Source of the DNA: a virus
Virus record (IMG/VR): IMGVR_UViG_3300017963_000217
Location: 35,387 to 99,386 of that record
DNA: 64,000 nucleotides
Reading direction: 5' to 3' (one strand)
Numbering within the stretch: the first letter of the stretch is position 1; each line of letters begins with the position of its first letter. A model generated the notes under the pieces. The model was not told the origin of the DNA and made no database searches. It saw only the letters and a program-made list of their open reading frames with translations. Both the position numbers and the translations under genes were made by a program. Positions 9,582 to 27,132 of the stretch are shown in pieces.

Positions 9582-9605
9582 AATTCATAATACGGAGCAG
9601 TGTAT

Positions 9606-12600
9606 ATGTGGGTACTGGCATACTTCACAGAAGAGGGTCAGCCAGTTACTGGACTGTCACCGACGGTTCTTATAAAGGATGTTGATACTGGTGCAGATGT
9701 TATAGCTGGCGCCTCTATGGATGATATAGGTGACGGGTTTTATAGATATGATTTCAGTGCCTATAATCCTACTAGGAATTATGCTGTAACCTGTGATAGT
9801 ATAACACTATCTGGCGTGGATAGGTATACCTATGCGGCTAGCGGTGAATATGGAGAAGTATTAGATTCTATTGAATCCACCGTTGGTTTGGTTGATATAC
9901 GGACAACTCTACTTAGAAAAATACAAACTAATAGATTAGAACTATTTGATGGAAATACAAATAACTGGATTTTATATGATGACGATGCGGTAACTCCGCT
10001 ACTTACTTTTAGTGTAAGTGATAAAAATGATGATATAATTGTTCAGTGTCCTAATTCTCCCTCAAAAAGATCTGGTGCAGCCGGAGTTAGTGGTACACTA
10101 TCTCCGGATATTTATATGCGCAAATCCGTGTATGATCCTGATGATGATGGATGCGTATCTTGTGCAGAAAATGTAAGTGATGGAATATATACTTCCACGG
10201 CTTCTGGAATAAAATACGCAGTAGATAATGCCCACGATCCTTGTATGATTTGTACTACGTTAGTGAATGAGTCCACTCAAGGAGATCAATTAGTACTAAA
10301 ATACGATGCTGCAACGGACAGGATAATTTATGGTCTTCCAGGCGTGTCTGGTTCAGTTTCTGGTACAATTAGTCATAAATATTTACTAGATCTTGATAGT
10401 GATGATCACTTACAATATGTGCCTAGAGACGGTAGTAGAGGATTTACCAATACTGTTTCTGGTGTATGGCCTACAGAAAGTTATCACTTAACCACCAAAC
10501 AATATGTTGATTTTGCGATAGGCGGTTTGGATTGGCAAGAAAGCGTTCTAAGTATGACAACAGAATATGGAGACGCTGTTGCCTCGGGTACTAATAGATA
10601 TATAGCCCCTTCGACATCTGGGGTATGGACTGAAAATAATGTTTATCAGTGGGATGAAGACAGCATGTCGTGGACAGAATTTGTGTCCAATGAAGGATTC
10701 GCTGCTTGGATAGAAGACACTGATTATGTTTATATCTATAATGGTACAGAGTGGATAAAGTTTAGTTCTATTACACCACATAATAATTTAGCTGGTATAC
10801 AAGGTGGATCATCTAACAATTATTATCATTTAACTCAGTCCGAATATAACACCCTAACATTTGCAGACGCTTCACTTGATGATGCTAGTTTATTACATAT
10901 TCATGATAGCAGATATTATACAGAAACAGAAATAGATGTTATAAGTGGATCTTTACAGTATAATATAGATAATCATACACATGATCATACCGCAATAACC
11001 GACTGGGATGAGGCAGTGTTAGATACTGTAGGTCCAAACATTGTTGGAGCTGGTATCGTCACTGTGACATACGACGATGGTTCTGATTTAATTACTGTTA
11101 GCGGATCGGACACATCTATTACTGATCATGGATTATTATCTGGGCTTGGTGATAATGATCATACTCAATATGTAAATGCGGTAGGTGGACCTCCACTGAC
11201 ACTGGCAGCTCAAACAATAACATTTAATTATGATACTAATGATTTTCAATTAAGTGGTAATAATCTCCAGATTAAGGATAGTGGAATTGATCATGGTAGT
11301 CTGTCAGGGTTGTCCGATAATGATCACCCACAATATATATTACATTTACATCCAGTTGGTACAAATAATTTAGTAGGTGGCCCTAATGCCGGTGCTAGTA
11401 TAGCTGCTGGAGCATCAAATAATATTGTATTAGGTAAAGATGCTGCTAGTAATTTGGCCACGGCTGACAATAATGTTATGATAGGCGTAGAGTCTGGTAA
11501 ATCTGCCACGACTGCCGATTCAAATGTTATGGTGGGATACCAGTCTGGTGAATTTCATACTTCTGGAGATGATAATGTATATATTGGTAATAGCGCGGGA
11601 GCTTCGGCTGGATCTGCTACCGGGCAAGGTATAGGCAATGTTTTTATAGGATCCCAAGTTGCTACAGCAATAACTACTGCAGATCAAAATGTGTCGATTG
11701 GTTATATTGCTGGTCAGAGTTTAACTACGGGAGATGGTAACGTTATTGTTGGAGGATCTGCTGGAAATTCTATTACAACAGGTCAAGGTAATACTATTAT
11801 TGGAAAAGCAGCTGGACTTTCCACAACTGGGTCAAAAAATGTATTTATAGGTTATGAGTCTGGACTAAACGAAACTGGCAGTAATAAGTTATATATAGAC
11901 AATTCAAGCACGACAACACCATTAATATATGGTGATTTTTCTTCCGATTTACTGAGATTTAATGCTGATGTAGAAATCAGAAACGGTAAAGAACTTAGAT
12001 TTTATGATGTTGATAATAGTAATTATGTTGGTTTTGAAGCTCCACCATTAACGAGTAATCAAATATGGGTGTTGCCACCTACTGATGGATTATCTGGTCA
12101 GCAGTTGACTACGGATGGATTGGGTAATTTAACCTGGAGTGCAGCTAGTGTATCAGATCATGAGTTACTAACTAATCTTTATGGTGGATCAGCTAACAAC
12201 CACTATCACTTAACATCTAATCAACATATGTATTTAACTAATGTTAGTGGTATATTAGATGCTAGCAACCAACATATACATGATGATAGATATTACACTG
12301 AATTAGAAATACAACAATTAATAGGTATAAATAAATCTGGATCTGAATCAGTGATTAATGGATCTACAGGAACTTCGGTATCATTTTCTACTGCATTTCC
12401 TAATGATGATTATGCTCTATTTGTTAGTCTTGAGAATATTACAGATTCACCAGCGTCAGAATATGCTATAAATATTGATGGTAAAACAGCATCTGGTTTT
12501 TCAGTGCATTATTCTGGAGATATAGATTCAGATAATTATATTTTGAATTGGTATGCCACTACGTCTGGTATACATGGGGGAAATTATATTTCCGAACTGG

Positions 12601-13085
12601 CGGATGATAGTTCGCCTGAATTAAGTAATGATTTAGATTTAAATAGTTATGGAATAAATTTAGATACAACTCCTAGTGGGCAAGTAGTTTCAACACAGAT
12701 AATTGGTTATAGTGGTGAAATATCCACTATGCAAATTGATTTAAATGATACAGGGTTAAACGGAATAGGGGTTCCATTACATATGAAATCTAATGGACAT
12801 TGGGAAAGGTGTACTGCTGCAAGTGGTACTACTAGAATGCCGTGTGCAGCATTATCTATAGAGCAGGGAACAGGATCAAAAAAAATATTATGGAAAGGCA
12901 TAATGAGAAAAGGATCATGGTCTTGGACGCCAGGGAATATTATTTATGTTTCCACAGTTGATGGAGCATTGACTAGTACAGCACCGATTAATGCGGGTGC
13001 GTGGGTACAGCCTATAGGAGTAGCGATAGCCTCGGATACAATAAGATTTGATACAGGATTTAATCCAGGGGTAATAAATTCTTAG
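9606..13085 (+). CDS. Large head/neck or tail fibre protein
   Basis: A 1159-residue modular fibre. ATG 9606 is chosen because GGAG lies eight bases before it and because the resulting N-terminus (MWVLAYFTEEGQPVTGLSPT) matches the paralogue at 19262. Residues 1-150 form this shared attachment-like domain. Next come 'DDHLQYVPRDGSRGF' and 'SYHLTTKQYVD' repeats, a DUF2793-like domain (about 320-395), His-rich metal-binding motifs (HIHDSRYYTETE; HIHDDRYYTELE), and a YadA-head-like beta-roll at about 605-780 built of 'NVxIG..AG..xTTG' units ending in LYIDNSSTTTPLIYGDF. The last 165 residues form a C-terminal domain (GVPLHMKSNGHWERCTAAS; GNIIYVSTVDGAL) found again in neighbours. Such fibres are trimeric adhesins. 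Placement between head and neck genes favours a head or collar fibre (inference). Confidence 0.72.
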   Translation: MWVLAYFTEEGQPVTGLSPTVLIKDVDTGADVIAGASMDDIGDGFYRYDFSAYNPTRNYAVTCDSITLSGVDRYTYAASGEYGEVLDSIESTVGLVDIRTTLLRKIQTNRLELFDGNTNNWILYDDDAVTPLLTFSVSDKNDDIIVQCPNSPSKRSGAAGVSGTLSPDIYMRKSVYDPDDDGCVSCAENVSDGIYTSTASGIKYAVDNAHDPCMICTTLVNESTQGDQLVLKYDAATDRIIYGLPGVSGSVSGTISHKYLLDLDSDDHLQYVPRDGSRGFTNTVSGVWPTESYHLTTKQYVDFAIGGLDWQESVLSMTTEYGDAVASGTNRYIAPSTSGVWTENNVYQWDEDSMSWTEFVSNEGFAAWIEDTDYVYIYNGTEWIKFSSITPHNNLAGIQGGSSNNYYHLTQSEYNTLTFADASLDDASLLHIHDSRYYTETEIDVISGSLQYNIDNHTHDHTAITDWDEAVLDTVGPNIVGAGIVTVTYDDGSDLITVSGSDTSITDHGLLSGLGDNDHTQYVNAVGGPPLTLAAQTITFNYDTNDFQLSGNNLQIKDSGIDHGSLSGLSDNDHPQYILHLHPVGTNNLVGGPNAGASIAAGASNNIVLGKDAASNLATADNNVMIGVESGKSATTADSNVMVGYQSGEFHTSGDDNVYIGNSAGASAGSATGQGIGNVFIGSQVATAITTADQNVSIGYIAGQSLTTGDGNVIVGGSAGNSITTGQGNTIIGKAAGLSTTGSKNVFIGYESGLNETGSNKLYIDNSSTTTPLIYGDFSSDLLRFNADVEIRNGKELRFYDVDNSNYVGFEAPPLTSNQIWVLPPTDGLSGQQLTTDGLGNLTWSAASVSDHELLTNLYGGSANNHYHLTSNQHMYLTNVSGILDASNQHIHDDRYYTELEIQQLIGINKSGSESVINGSTGTSVSFSTAFPNDDYALFVSLENITDSPASEYAINIDGKTASGFSVHYSGDIDSDNYILNWYATTSGIHGGNYISELADDSSPELSNDLDLNSYGINLDTTPSGQVVSTQIIGYSGEISTMQIDLNDTGLNGIGVPLHMKSNGHWERCTAASGTTRMPCAALSIEQGTGSKKILWKGIMRKGSWSWTPGNIIYVSTVDGALTSTAPINAGAWVQPIGVAIASDTIRFDTGFNPGVINS

Positions 13086-19261: not shown

Positions 19262-19741
19262 ATGTGGATAACTACATATTTTCATATAGCTGGTGCACCT
19301 GCTGAGGGACTATCTCCTATTGTTAGGATAAGAGATGTAGAGTCTGCGGGCACCGTTGTAGAAACTGGTACCATGGACGATCTTGGAGACGGCATTTATA
19401 CATATGAGTTTACCGGATATGATATAACTACTGAATATGCTATATTGTGCGATGCAGTGACTCTTCCTAATAATTATAGGTATAAACATTTGTCTAGTGG
19501 AGAATACGGCGACGTTATAGGTACTGTAAATATTTTAAGCGATAATATTGATATACGGACTTTATTGATAAGAAAAATACTGACTAATAAATTGGAATTA
19601 TTTGACGGGGGAATTGATAATTGGATACTGTACGATGACGATTCTTCTACTGTTTTGACCACGTGGGATGTAACTGATAAAGATGATACTGATATAGAAC
19701 AGGATGCTCTTACAGATGCTAAAAGATCTAAGGGGGTTTAA
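19262..19741 (+). CDS. Split structural gene, N-terminal part (paralogue of fibre N-domain)
   Basis: These 159 residues match the first 150 residues of the 9606 fibre over their whole length: MWITTYFHIAGAPAEGLSP, TMDDLGDGIYTYEFTGYD, SSGEYGDVIGTV, DIRTLLIRKILTNKLELFDG and NWILYDDDSSTVLTTWDVTD. The frame then ends ...KRSKGV-stop where an HNH endonuclease gene begins at the next base. After that gene a Trp/Gly-rich frame resumes (VSTWGWGSACGG), so I read this as the upstream half of one gene split by the endonuclease. The domain probably attaches the protein to the virion. Whether the halves work as separate chains is unknown. Confidence 0.66.
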   Translation: MWITTYFHIAGAPAEGLSPIVRIRDVESAGTVVETGTMDDLGDGIYTYEFTGYDITTEYAILCDAVTLPNNYRYKHLSSGEYGDVIGTVNILSDNIDIRTLLIRKILTNKLELFDGGIDNWILYDDDSSTVLTTWDVTDKDDTDIEQDALTDAKRSKGV

Positions 19742-20473
19742 ATGAGATTTATAGATATTAGCGGTAAAAAGTTTAATAGGTGGACTGTTCTTGAATATGC
19801 TGGATTTACCGATGGTCTGGATAAACGAAGATCTTGGAAATGTAGATGTGAGTGCGGCACAATTAGAGTAGTCGCTGGCACTAGTTTAAAACTAGGCAAA
19901 AGCAAAAGCTGTGGCTGTTTAGGCAGAGAAATATCTAGCAAAAACACTAATAATAGGATAGATATGTGTGGAAAAAGATTTGGTAGGTTGTTGGTTCTAA
20001 AATTTGCTGGCCATGATAAATATAAGTCTGCTTTATGGGAAGTTAAATGCGATTGTGGTAATATAAAAATTTTAAATGGTAATTATTTGAGAAGAGGTCA
20101 TACTACTAGTTGTGGATGTTATAATTTGGAACGATCTATAGAAGCTAATACAGGTAAGAATAATCACCAATGGAAAGGTGGCATTTCTTTGTCAGATCGC
20201 AAATCCGTTAAATATACTAAATGGCGTAGAAAAGTTATTAAAAGAGATAAATATAAATGCCAAATGTGTAATAGAACCTTATATAAATCTTTACATGCTC
20301 ATCATATTTTTCCCTTCGGAGATTATGAAAAACTTAGATTCAAAGTTTAGAATGGTATATCTCTTTGTAAAAAATGCCATGAAAGTATAAAAAATAGAGA
20401 ACACTGCTTTATAGATAAATTTATAGCTATAACAAATGGTTATAAATATCGGGAGGGAATAACATTGGGGTAA
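19742..20473 (+). pseudogene. HNH homing endonuclease with in-frame amber stop
   Basis: The first 202 residues have two 'GxRFGxLxVL...WxxxCxCGxxxxxxxxxLxxGxxxSCGC' DNA-binding repeats (RWTVLEYAG...KSCGCL; GRLLVLKFAG...TTSCGC), then the HNH start (RDKYKCQMC, LHAHHIFPFGDYEKLRFKV). A TAG at 20348-20350 interrupts exactly where family members continue to 'NGIxLCxxCH'. The same frame continues after it as NGISLCKKCHESIKNREHCF to a TAA at 20471-20473. The amber codon therefore removes the Asn/His half of the HNH site. TAG ends many other genes here, so recoding is unlikely; one point mutation, or readthrough, explains it. The gene fills the gap between two halves of a structural gene, with no room for a ribozyme. 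Confidence 0.78.
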
Positions 20474-20715
20474 GTACATGGGGTTGGGGAAGTGCGTGTG
20501 GTGGAATAATAACCTCGTGGGGCTGGGGCCAGTGCCCATGTGAAGACTTTATACCTTCGGCTTCTGTACAGGATATTTGCGGTACTCCTGTGAGAACGTG
20601 CGTAGAAGTTAGGAATAGGCCATCTGATCTCGCATCTAGAGCCAGACCCTCTGAATTTGCGTCTAGAGCTAGACCGGCTGTTATACCTTCGCGCAGTAAT
20701 ATATGTGATGACTAA
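20464..20715 (+). CDS. Split structural gene, C-terminal part
   Basis: About 83 codons continue the frame broken at 19738: VSTWGWGSACGGIITSWGWG, QCPCEDFIPSASV, CVEVRNRPSDLASRARPSEF and a repeat ASRARP before the stop at 20713. It has no ATG. GGGAGGG at 20451-20457 sits six bases before an in-frame ATT (20464), which I give as a tentative start; the frame overlaps the end of the endonuclease frame. Two WGWG units and three short 'xxASRARP' repeats are visible. If the upstream and downstream parts were one gene, the junction would have been ...SKGV(V)STWGWG. It is too short and start-less to be confident that it is translated. Confidence 0.5.
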   Translation: MGVSTWGWGSACGGIITSWGWGQCPCEDFIPSASVQDICGTPVRTCVEVRNRPSDLASRARPSEFASRARPAVIPSRSNICDD

Positions 20716-22719: not shown

Positions 22720-24327
22720 ATGGGAAAAAAATATACTATAGGATATATAGAGGAAAATTTTAATAAAGAAGGTTATAAATTATTAACTAGTGAATACAAT
22801 GGGTGCAAACAAAAGCTAGATTTTATATGTCCTAATGGCCATAGACATAATATAAGTTTTGATAAATGGTTAAAAGGCCAAAGATGTTATTACTGTAATG
22901 GTAATGTGAGATTGAGTAACACAGAAGTAAAAAGAGAATTTGAAGAAAATGGATATATATTATTATCTCAATATAAAAACAGCGGCACTAAATTGAAATA
23001 TAAATGCCCTCAAGGCCATATAGGTGAGATGAAGTGGGATCATTTTAGGGACGGTCATAGATGTCCAGAATGTTCGGGGAATAAACCTATTAGTAGAGAA
23101 AAGATATCCGCTAGATTTAGCTCAATGGGTTATAAATTTTTAGATAAGATAAATAACAACGGTATTAGACGATTGTCTTATGTTTGCGATAAAGGTCATT
23201 ATGGAGAAACCACATGGTATAACTTTAACAAAGGTATAAGATGTAATGAATGCGCGGGCAAAGCAAAAAAGACGGTGGATTTTTTACGAAATGAATTTAA
23301 CACAGAGGGATACGCACTTGTAACAGAAAATTATGAAAACTGTCACCAAAAATTACATTTAGTATGCCCTAATGGTCATAATTATTATGTATCATGGGAT
23401 AATTGGAATAATAAAAACTCTCGTTGTACGAAATGTAGTGAATGGGGCAGATCTAATCAAGAAACTGAGTTATTCGAGTTTTTGAATGGTATATGTGACA
23501 AAATAATTAGAAATGATAGATCATTAATAAGCCCTTATGAGATTGATTTTGTAATACCTGAAAAGAATGTTGCTATAGAATATTGCGGCTTATACTGGCA
23601 TTCTGAATTAGCTGGTAGAAATAGGAATTATCATATAGATAAATTAGATAAATGTCAATCCAAGGGTTATAGACTTATAACTATTTTTGAGGATGAATTT
23701 GTAAATCGTAAAGAAATTGTTTTTTCAAGGCTCAAAACTATTCTTGGTTTAAATAGTAATAAGATATTTGCTAGAGATTGTTTAGTAAAAGAGATATCTA
23801 CTAATGAGGCATCCGAGTTTTGTAATAAACATCATTTACAAGGATATCACGGTTCATCAATTAAAATAGGTGCTTTTTATAAAAATAAATTAGTATCAGT
23901 AATGACTTTTTCTAAACCATCTATAGCTAAAGGTAGTAAATATAAAGAAGATTTTATTTGGGAACTGTCTAGGTTTTGTTCCATCCAAGACTATATTATA
24001 ATTGGTATAGCTTCAAAGTTATTAAAATTTTTTGAAAGAAATTACAAATGGAATGAGATATTTTCATATGCAGATAGAAGATGGTCTGATGGTAATTTAT
24101 ATATAAAAATGGGATTTGAATATTCTAGTATTACTACTCCTAACTATTGGTATTTGAGTAAACAATCAAGAATTCATAGATTTGCTTTGCGTAAAACAAA
24201 AGAGGATCCTAAGGATCAAACAGAATGGCAAATAAGAAAATATGATGGTTGGAATAGAATATGGGATTGTGGGAATTTGAAATATAAAAAAATTAATGCC
24301 TCATATTTAAGCAACTATGTTGCTTAG
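22720..24327 (+). CDS. EDxHD (Vsr-like) homing endonuclease with four zinc ribbons
   Basis: A 535-residue free-standing endonuclease. Residues about 1-240 contain four tandem zinc-binding repeats of form CPxGH-(14-18)-CxxC: CPNGHRHNISFDKWLKGQRC, CPQGHIGEMKWDHFRDGHRC, CDKGHYGETTWYNFNKGIRC and CPNGHNYYVSWDNW...RCTKC. The catalytic part at about 245-330 reads EIDFVIPEKNVAIEYCGLYW then HSE, HIDKLDKCQSKGYRLITIF and EDEF, the EDxHD arrangement of the I-Bth0305I family related to very-short-patch repair nucleases. A further 200-residue domain (CLVKEISTNEASEFCNKHHL to the end) is often attached to these enzymes. It sits between the terminator-like and tail tube genes, AT-rich and with a weak ribosome binding site. 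It does not interrupt a gene. Confidence 0.85.
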   Translation: MGKKYTIGYIEENFNKEGYKLLTSEYNGCKQKLDFICPNGHRHNISFDKWLKGQRCYYCNGNVRLSNTEVKREFEENGYILLSQYKNSGTKLKYKCPQGHIGEMKWDHFRDGHRCPECSGNKPISREKISARFSSMGYKFLDKINNNGIRRLSYVCDKGHYGETTWYNFNKGIRCNECAGKAKKTVDFLRNEFNTEGYALVTENYENCHQKLHLVCPNGHNYYVSWDNWNNKNSRCTKCSEWGRSNQETELFEFLNGICDKIIRNDRSLISPYEIDFVIPEKNVAIEYCGLYWHSELAGRNRNYHIDKLDKCQSKGYRLITIFEDEFVNRKEIVFSRLKTILGLNSNKIFARDCLVKEISTNEASEFCNKHHLQGYHGSSIKIGAFYKNKLVSVMTFSKPSIAKGSKYKEDFIWELSRFCSIQDYIIIGIASKLLKFFERNYKWNEIFSYADRRWSDGNLYIKMGFEYSSITTPNYWYLSKQSRIHRFALRKTKEDPKDQTEWQIRKYDGWNRIWDCGNLKYKKINASYLSNYVA

Positions 24328-24441: not shown

Positions 24442-24596
24442 ATGGCAAGAAACAGGATCATTTATGGTTCTCAATCAGTATGGTGTAATGGTGAAATCCT
24501 ATATAGAGTGCAGACACTGGGCAGTACCACAACTTTTACGTCTGAGGACATATTTGAACTAGGTCATTTAGATATAGTAGACGTTGTGGACGACGT
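24442..24596 (+). CDS. Major tail tube protein, exon 1
   Basis: The first 51 codons and two bases of a 535-residue protein completed by 25680-27132. It starts ARNRIIYGSQSVWCNGEILY with AGGAGG 14 bases upstream. Exon 1 ends ...DIVDVVDDV; without splicing the frame stops after one more codon at 24601. P1 fixes the splice: exon GACGT (24592-24596) pairs with intron GCGTC (24606-24610) with the U24596-G24606 wobble. The junction restores VDDVPAVAVTLNTNDWGD, a motif of tail tube proteins ('E-D-xPAVxVTLxxxDxG'). The tube forms the channel for DNA and lies next to chaperone and tape measure genes, as is usual. Confidence 0.78.
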
Positions 24597-25679
24597 AAGA
24601 TAGTTGCGTCCTTGTTGGGTAACCAACATGTAAAACTTCATGATATGCTGGAAACTCCCACTAAGTTTTTACTACTAACCGATATCGGAGTAATAATGTA
24701 AAAAATAGGGACAATCAGCAGGGGAGATTTTATAATGAGAAAAAAAATGCCTTATAGTAAGGATGAATTACAAAAGTTGTATATGGAAGAGGGATCTATA
24801 GGTAAAGTAGCATCAAAATTATCTAAACCTTATAGTACTGTTAGATATTGGTATGAAAAAAATGATATCAAAGTACAACCTTCATGCATGACTATCTACC
24901 AAGAATTAAGAGAAACCCCCATGTCACAATTTCAAAAATCTATAGTTTTGGGTTCGGTTCTTGGTGATGGGAATTTGAAATTAGCCCCCCATAGTAAAAA
25001 TGCTAGACTAAGAATTGGTCATTGTAAAAAGCAAATAGGTTATTTAAAATGGAAATACGATATGCTACAACCCTTTTCTAGAAAATTTGGTTTAGATCAG
25101 CCTGCCAAAGAAAAAATTTATAAAGGGAAAAAGTTTAAGTCGACTGATTTTTACAGATTTCATACGGTAGTTCATCCAGATATTACTTATTATTATAGAA
25201 AATATTATAATAAGGGTAACAAAATAGTTCACAGAGACGTTATAGATGAACTTGATTTAATATCACTTGCTATATGGTTTGGTGATGATGGATCTTCATA
25301 CAGAGATAAAAGAACTGATGCTGTTATGTGCTCATTTGCTACTAATTCATTTAGTTATAAGGAACAAGTAGTGCTAGTAAAGGCTTTAAGAAGGTTCTTT
25401 GGTGGTACCATAAAAATAGATGAGCAAGGTAATAAAGGCAGATCAGATTTACTTTTAAGAATGTATAAGACCGTTTATGTAAAAGACTTTTTGTACAATA
25501 TTAAATCAATTTTACCAAAATGTATTCATTATAAAATCGCCCTCAGAGACTAGGTATGAAGCTCCTATTTTATTATAGGATGAAGGTATAGTCCGAACTT
25601 ACAGGAAACTGTAAGAGGGAATGCCGAAGAGCTTCCCCGCCTAACAGGTAAAGCTGAGGTCATTATAAGTAACAGATTG
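24597..25679 (+). mobile_element. Group I intron (IA2-like) in the tail tube gene
   Basis: A 1083-base intron homologous to the capsid-gene intron. Seen: P1 with exon 1; a P3/P4-like GATATGCTGGAAACTCCC at about 24641-24658; GGGACAATCAGCAGG (P3'/P7 region) at about 24709-24723; GGTATAGTCCGAAC after the endonuclease at about 25585-25598; the hairpin CTTACAG-GAAA-CTGTAAG; and the 3' end AGTAACAGATTG with omega-G at 25679, the same twelve bases as the capsid intron. The homing endonuclease lies in the P8-side loop and does not overlap the core, unlike the capsid-gene intron. Removal restores a continuous tail tube frame. Confidence 0.9.
24735..25553 (+). CDS. LAGLIDADG homing endonuclease of the tail-tube intron
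   Basis: A 272-residue enzyme with an N-terminal helix-turn-helix (YSKDELQKLYMEEGSIGKVA, then STVRYWYEKNDI) and a LAGLIDADG-type nuclease of the group with less regular motifs: SIVLGSVLGDGNLK (first, about residues 73-87) and LISLAIWFGDDGSSYRD (second, about 175-190). It is preceded by GGGGAG. It differs in family and placement from the enzyme in the capsid-gene intron although the two ribozymes are alike, which points to separate endonuclease invasions of a common intron. Expected role: cut tail tube alleles lacking the intron. Confidence 0.88.
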   Translation: MRKKMPYSKDELQKLYMEEGSIGKVASKLSKPYSTVRYWYEKNDIKVQPSCMTIYQELRETPMSQFQKSIVLGSVLGDGNLKLAPHSKNARLRIGHCKKQIGYLKWKYDMLQPFSRKFGLDQPAKEKIYKGKKFKSTDFYRFHTVVHPDITYYYRKYYNKGNKIVHRDVIDELDLISLAIWFGDDGSSYRDKRTDAVMCSFATNSFSYKEQVVLVKALRRFFGGTIKIDEQGNKGRSDLLLRMYKTVYVKDFLYNIKSILPKCIHYKIALRD

Positions 25680-27132
25680 ACCTGCTGTCGCAGTTACACT
25701 TAACACTAACGATTGGGGCGATGTAAAAACCATGGCCGTATTAGCACAAGTTCCAGCAGCTAAACTTGCAATGGACGCTAACGCTACTAATAGTAATGCT
25801 AACTTAGCTACTGTTGACTCAAGTCTTACAGAGTTGGGTTATTACCATCATGGTGCATGTTTAGCTGACTTTGCGGTTACTTGTGGTAACTTAACTGGTG
25901 TTACTTTATGGGCTCCAGTTCAGTCAGAATGTGATCTTGGTACACTAGCTAATAATATAGACCAGACTATGGTAATGGACGAAGTCTACGTAAATAGTCT
26001 TGAATTTGGCTATACTACTGGTGCAAATGCTACTGAGAACTACGGTGCTGAGACTGACCAAAAGCTATGGTTGCTGAATGATGGTAGATTTGTTAACTAC
26101 GAAGAACTAGATTATGATAGTGGTGATTTTACCACTTCTGGTACTTTAGCTTCTGGTGTTACTATAGCCACATTTAGTGATGGAAGTTTGGGATTCTTAA
26201 GAACCGATGTTGATGGCGCTAGGGCAGTTACCTATTTTGATGCAAGTGCGAACAATGGGCTTGGTGAACAAGTTAATTGGGCAGTTGTTTCTGGTACTGC
26301 TGCTGCTACTAGTACATTTGTGTATGATGAATCTACTGATACCTTGTATCTACCTACTGTTGGTATAGCTCCAGCGGCCGGCGACAAGATATTTGCTGTA
26401 TACTCAGCAGACGGTTATGTAACTGCTATGGGTAATAAATATTTTGAAATTCTAGATGTTACTGAGCGCCCAGATACTATTGGCGCTTTGAGACAGGGTC
26501 AGGTAGAGATTTATATTGTATCTGATACTGACGCATCATATGAGAATGCATGGAGATTGACTGCGGTTACTATTACTTCTGACCTTACGCGTGAAGCTTT
26601 GGCTGAACTTGGTCATTTGGGTCCATATGATAGGCCGTTGACAGTTCCAATACCAATTACAGTTACCATAGACACCACTGCTGGTGACTTGGAACATTGG
26701 TCAAGATTTGCTGATAGGTATTCCGAGTTTGCTAATGATACTATGATAGATATAGATCTAGCAGATTTATTCTCATCGGAAGATCTTAAGTTAGTGGTTA
26801 AGGTATTTGCTCAGACCGACGAAGAAGCTGGTGGAACAGGTTCTAATAGAACTATTGCTGTCGGTTCAGATCTTATTGGTCAGGATTATTTTTGGTCAGA
26901 TTCTGCGGCAAGTTCTGTAAAGGGAACCATTGCTGCTGGTCAAACTGAAAGAGCACTTAAGACTATCGTTGTTGAACATCTTAAGATTACGGATGAGGCT
27001 TACACATTGGATCTTGGAACAAACGCTACTCAGACATTTGGGTTTCGTTCAACCAATGATCTCTATGTTGTTAAGGGAGACCTTGATATAGATCATATTA
27101 CTGGTGGTAATAAGATTAGGCGTAATGCTTAA
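25680..27132 (+). CDS. Major tail tube protein, exon 2
   Basis: Codes for residues 52-535, starting with A25680 that completes the split Val codon. The first part (PAVAVTLNTNDWGDVKTMAV) is the tube-fold motif. The remaining sequence is beta-rich with insertions (DYDSGDFTTSGTLASGVTIA; FDASANNGLGEQVNWAVVSG) that make the protein longer than the usual 150-300 residues of tubes, so extra surface domains are likely. The C-terminal section (DRPLTVPIPITVTIDTTAGD; LVVKVFAQTDEEAGGTGSNR) resembles the tube's second sheet, ending ITGGNKIRRNA. A GC-rich hairpin follows the stop. The 535-residue size could also suit a tube-sheath hybrid, but no sheath motif is visible. Confidence 0.72.

Follow-up and report, generated by a model that had tools for sequence, protein, structure and literature searches.

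The window is the whole 64,000-nucleotide stretch of DNA that was analysed (positions 35387-99386 in the record of an uncultured virus, 99,386 bases long), in which a frame for an HNH endonuclease lies between a short upstream gene and a gene with conserved WGWG repeats (Table 1). The upstream frame closes with the TAA at 19739-19741, which the HNH ATG (19742-19744) directly abuts, and AAGGGGG at 19730-19736 is probably the ribosome-binding site of the HNH gene. Past an in-frame TAG, the HNH frame reads NGISLCKKCHESIKNREHCFIDKFIAITNGYKYREGITLG and closes at the TAA at 20471-20473; the WGWG gene overlaps this end by 10 bases in another frame and reads ATT(20464) GGG GTA AGT ACA TGG onward to the TAA at 20713-20715. 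An earlier note on this DNA had the upstream frame ending right before the endonuclease and the WGWG frame following in a different frame, and both coordinates were confirmed; the insert start that it gave, 19738, falls on the final base of the codon that precedes the stop.

Table 1. Features at the joint, in coordinates of the window
Feature	Position	Strand	Basis or remark
Upstream gene	19262..19741	+	159 aa, complete; homologues of same length and same end point in L001, L002, L008, L009, L105
AAGGGGG, Shine-Dalgarno-like, in last codons of upstream gene	19730..19736	+	sequence; role suggested by spacing
HNH endonuclease ORF as far as amber codon	19742..20350	+	phrog_374 E 5e-39, several HNH PHROGs
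In-frame TAG within HNH motif	20348..20350	+	S, D or T there in relatives
Rest of HNH domain, with Asn, CKKC and last His: 40 in-frame codons and a TAA	20351..20473	+	
GGGAGGG, Shine-Dalgarno-like, within 3′ end of HNH frame	20451..20457	+	6 bases before ATT; putative role
WGWG gene, 83 codons from probable ATT start	20464..20715	+	52% identity to L001 protein

The endonuclease frame and its amber codon

Up to the TAG, the HNH frame encodes 202 aa, with two Cys-rich repeats at the N-terminus and then the HNH domain's first half, and the amber codon separates the first His of the HNH motif from its Asn. Upon read-through of the TAG, the scores against the PHROGs HNH families rose from 34 to 60 bits (phrog_119), from 27 to 47 bits (phrog_144) and from 22 to 44 bits (phrog_5956), indicating true HNH sequence in the downstream half. 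Furthermore, the chance of a 40-codon open frame was about 0.016 in dinucleotide shuffles, and the motif residues CQMC, HH, N and CKKCH are all present when both sides of the TAG are counted. These results bear out the observation of the earlier note that the TAG stands where the catalytic half begins and that this half is still readable behind it.

The zinc CxxC pairs, His, Asn and His of an HNH domain were found together only across the amber codon, and the uninterrupted reading frame of a free-standing HNH homing endonuclease gene is broken by the in-frame TAG at 20348; therefore, the gene was classed as a disabled member of this group. Because truncation at the TAG loses the Asn, the last His and one zinc-binding CxxC, the main product should not cut; the 202-aa fragment keeps the N-terminal Cys-rich repeats, which are presumably DNA-binding. 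The lesion is probably recent, since the HNH gene is otherwise undamaged.

This phage has another HNH gene from that family, 40% identical and uninterrupted (G000:C1:27515-28090, L013). Residues 136-178 of the HNH protein (19742-20347) also showed weak and unexplained sequence similarities to two chains of solved structure, the tail protein 9c2d (E 4e-4) and the Ig-like domain protein 9ncf (E 0.04).

Rather than being dead, the gene may be conditional, if a CUA tRNA of the phage reads through the amber codon to yield some full-length active HNH protein. The record does encode a CUA-anticodon tRNA (G000:C1:8332-8406, outside the window, L080; Rfam tRNA 63 bits), labelled Pyl by ARAGORN, and another is carried by the related record G005 (G005:C1:48237-48309, minus strand); none was found by ARAGORN in G001, G002 and G004. 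In both of the phages with such a tRNA, TAG remains an ordinary terminator. Supportively, the HNH half past the TAG is intact, and the TAG position varies in relatives, so that most residues should be tolerated there. However, TAG terminates 11 of the 78 ORFs of at least 100 aa, several of which have homologues that stop at the same place; the coding density showed no gain when TAG was taken as sense (0.898 to 0.896); comparison with homologues detected no other internal TAG in the aligned conserved genes of this record; and the anticodon loop of the phage tRNA is closed by a mismatch, a non-standard A-C pair. Of all TAGs that lie in frame within long frames, only the HNH codon was central, barring one at the joint of two genes which relatives carry separately. 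The stop-to-next-stop distance, which as a sign of readthrough would be shorter after TAG than after TAA, was not significantly so (p = 0.15). We consider such a conditional gene unlikely. Genome-wide recoding of TAG was ruled out by the absence of a density gain and by the conserved genes that TAG still ends. Decidedly improbable, in our estimate, is an arrangement in which TAG would be a stop elsewhere and the phage's own CUA tRNA would pass only a little full-length HNH protein, such that a homing gene in the structural cluster would be expressed only with a suppressor.

The TAG might also be a sequencing or assembly error in an intact HNH gene, given that it is the single lesion in an otherwise intact gene from a metagenome assembly; single-base substitution errors in assembled contigs are uncommon, though, which counts against an error, and we regard it as quite unlikely.

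The joint in relatives that lack the HNH gene

The empty site was confirmed, as relatives that have these flanking genes lack the insertion, and none of the relatives examined carries this HNH gene at this joint. In eight HNH-less relatives (L001, L002, L008, L009, L011, L105, L118 and L119), the upstream protein of ~158 aa and the WGWG protein are encoded by separate adjacent genes, with a stop/start overlap (TAATG or ATGA) at the joint in most of these contigs. In L001 (IMGVR_UViG_3300002053_000034), a 158-aa homologue of the upstream protein, 65% identical, ends RRSKAT-TAA, the stop overlapping the start ATG of a gene for 106 aa, MGISTWGWGSACGG; the same TAATG overlap was found in L002. The gene order is unchanged in L008 and L009, with TTG starts, L105 reads KRTKGG-TAA and then ATGGGGATAAGCACATGGGG, and the more distant L011, L118 and L119 carry ATGA-type overlaps. 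The same joint was found 5′ of the WGWG genes in four further contigs (L125-L128), and the ending PSKRSKGV-TAA of L125, read from the sequence upstream, is identical to the end of the upstream gene in the window. A WGWG-like match in L129 was discarded as a short match within a different long ORF. Against annotated phages, neither flanking protein had a significant match and a nucleotide search of the region found none, and no Pfam or PHROG family was detected above noise for the flanking proteins.

The upstream protein shares 48% identity with residues 1-158 of a 1161-aa fibre (9600-13085), in agreement with the N-domain match described in the earlier note, and on the basis of this similarity the fibre is a paralogue that shares its N-domain with the upstream gene. 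Long fibres with the same N-domain start were also found in L003-L007, L010, L112 and L113 of the same virus group. The fibre continues beyond the point where the upstream gene ends, and the earlier note mistook this paralogy for a split, proposing that the HNH gene had cut through one ancestral structural gene, with an N-part before it and an orphaned C-part behind; but relatives have the long fibre as well as a ~158-aa gene and, behind the latter, a WGWG gene, each of the two being separate, and a divided gene is therefore extremely improbable. Comparison with relatives lacking the insertion, which the note had itself proposed as a check, gave the very outcome that it had named as a refutation: the gene naturally ends at the joint, with KRSKGV-TAA in one relative, and the putative C-part is a separate whole gene there.

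The start of this WGWG gene was compared with those of its relatives. The window sequence ATT GGG GTA AGT ACA TGG aligned without gaps with ATG GGT ATA TCA ACG TGG of L001 and with ATG GGG ATA AGC ACA TGG of L105. From the preceding stop up to its conserved repeats, the WGWG frame contains no ATG, GTG or TTG, and the first canonical in-frame start, the GTG at 20590, lies well within the conserved part. Since the ATT aligns with the ATG of the relatives and no canonical start precedes the repeats, the WGWG gene is whole and probably starts at a rare ATT, as the earlier note had considered possible for the ATT after GGGAGGG. ATT is a rare start codon, with infC among the cellular genes that use it. 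Given the gap-free alignments, there is no need to assume that one G is missing and that the WGWG gene starts at TTG.

Insertion of the HNH gene and comparison with known systems

The HNH gene has its own start and stop and lies at a gene joint, not within an intron or intein. An Rfam search (E 0.1) detected no group I intron around it, and the sole intron match was elsewhere (25471-25615). The earlier note's intronless selfish gene, broken at an amber codon, remains the likeliest reading, with no such intron found, the TAG in the motif and the rest intact. We consider it probable, from these sequence comparisons, that a free-standing homing-type HNH gene was inserted at the joint of two separate genes and was later disabled by a recent nonsense mutation. 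The ancestral enzyme may have cut the empty joint in co-infecting relatives, whereupon repair would copy the gene in, as is suggested by its family. As shown by the comparison with HNH-less relatives, the HNH gene was inserted precisely where two neighbouring but separate phage genes adjoin. The end of the upstream gene would then serve the HNH gene as a ribosome-binding site, and the HNH 3′ end would furnish a ribosome-binding site and the ATT start for the WGWG gene, so that both neighbours would stay whole. The main product would be the inactive 202-aa fragment. In published surveys, phage homing genes are located near essential genes (PMC10448857), and homing genes are commonly inactivated after insertion (PMC13405050).

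Other probable inserts were observed in the window. The stretch 24597-25679 (about 1083 bases) is a probable group I intron with a LAGLIDADG_2 ORF (24735-25553), and the Rfam RF00028 match within it (25471-25615) has an E of 7e-7, yet is under the gathering score; the interrupted gene (exons 24442-24596 and 25680-27132, with splice points placed by alignment) is continuous in L001. The gene at 22720-24327 encodes a 535-aa protein with CapR/DUF4379-like zinc modules, an MTES_1575-type nuclease region and a Mom-like domain; it is missing between the same neighbours in L001 and is probably another mobile nuclease-type insert.

Collectively, the insert is most likely, for the most part, an ordinary phage parasite gene and a further example of the known disabled homing-type endonucleases. 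The empty-site comparison corrected a plausible split-gene reading, and the locus suggests a way for a homing gene to settle in a joint with overlapping stop and start: it brings substitute translation signals, among them a probable ATT start. The locus further provides a concrete test case of whether a CUA tRNA in a non-recoded phage has real targets.

With free-standing phage HNH endonucleases (phrog_374, phrog_119 and phrog_8446), the gene shares the N-terminal Cys-rich repeats, the C-terminal HNH domain and an intronless position between neck and tail genes, whereas the amber codon within the HNH motif and the probable ATT start of the next gene set it apart. The HNH gene of Pseudomonas phage KIL1, an example of this group, likewise lies between the neck and tail-sheath genes. 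Code-15 phages (PMC10879173, PMC9523058) also encode a CUA-anticodon tRNA, but unlike in those phages (TAG = Gln), TAG is not a genome-wide sense codon here and still ends conserved genes. As in the frameshifted gp115-gp116 of ICP1 (PMC10448857), a homing-type gene carries one inactivating lesion with the remainder readable; in contrast to ICP1, the lesion here is a nonsense codon and not a frameshift, and the phage encodes a CUA tRNA.
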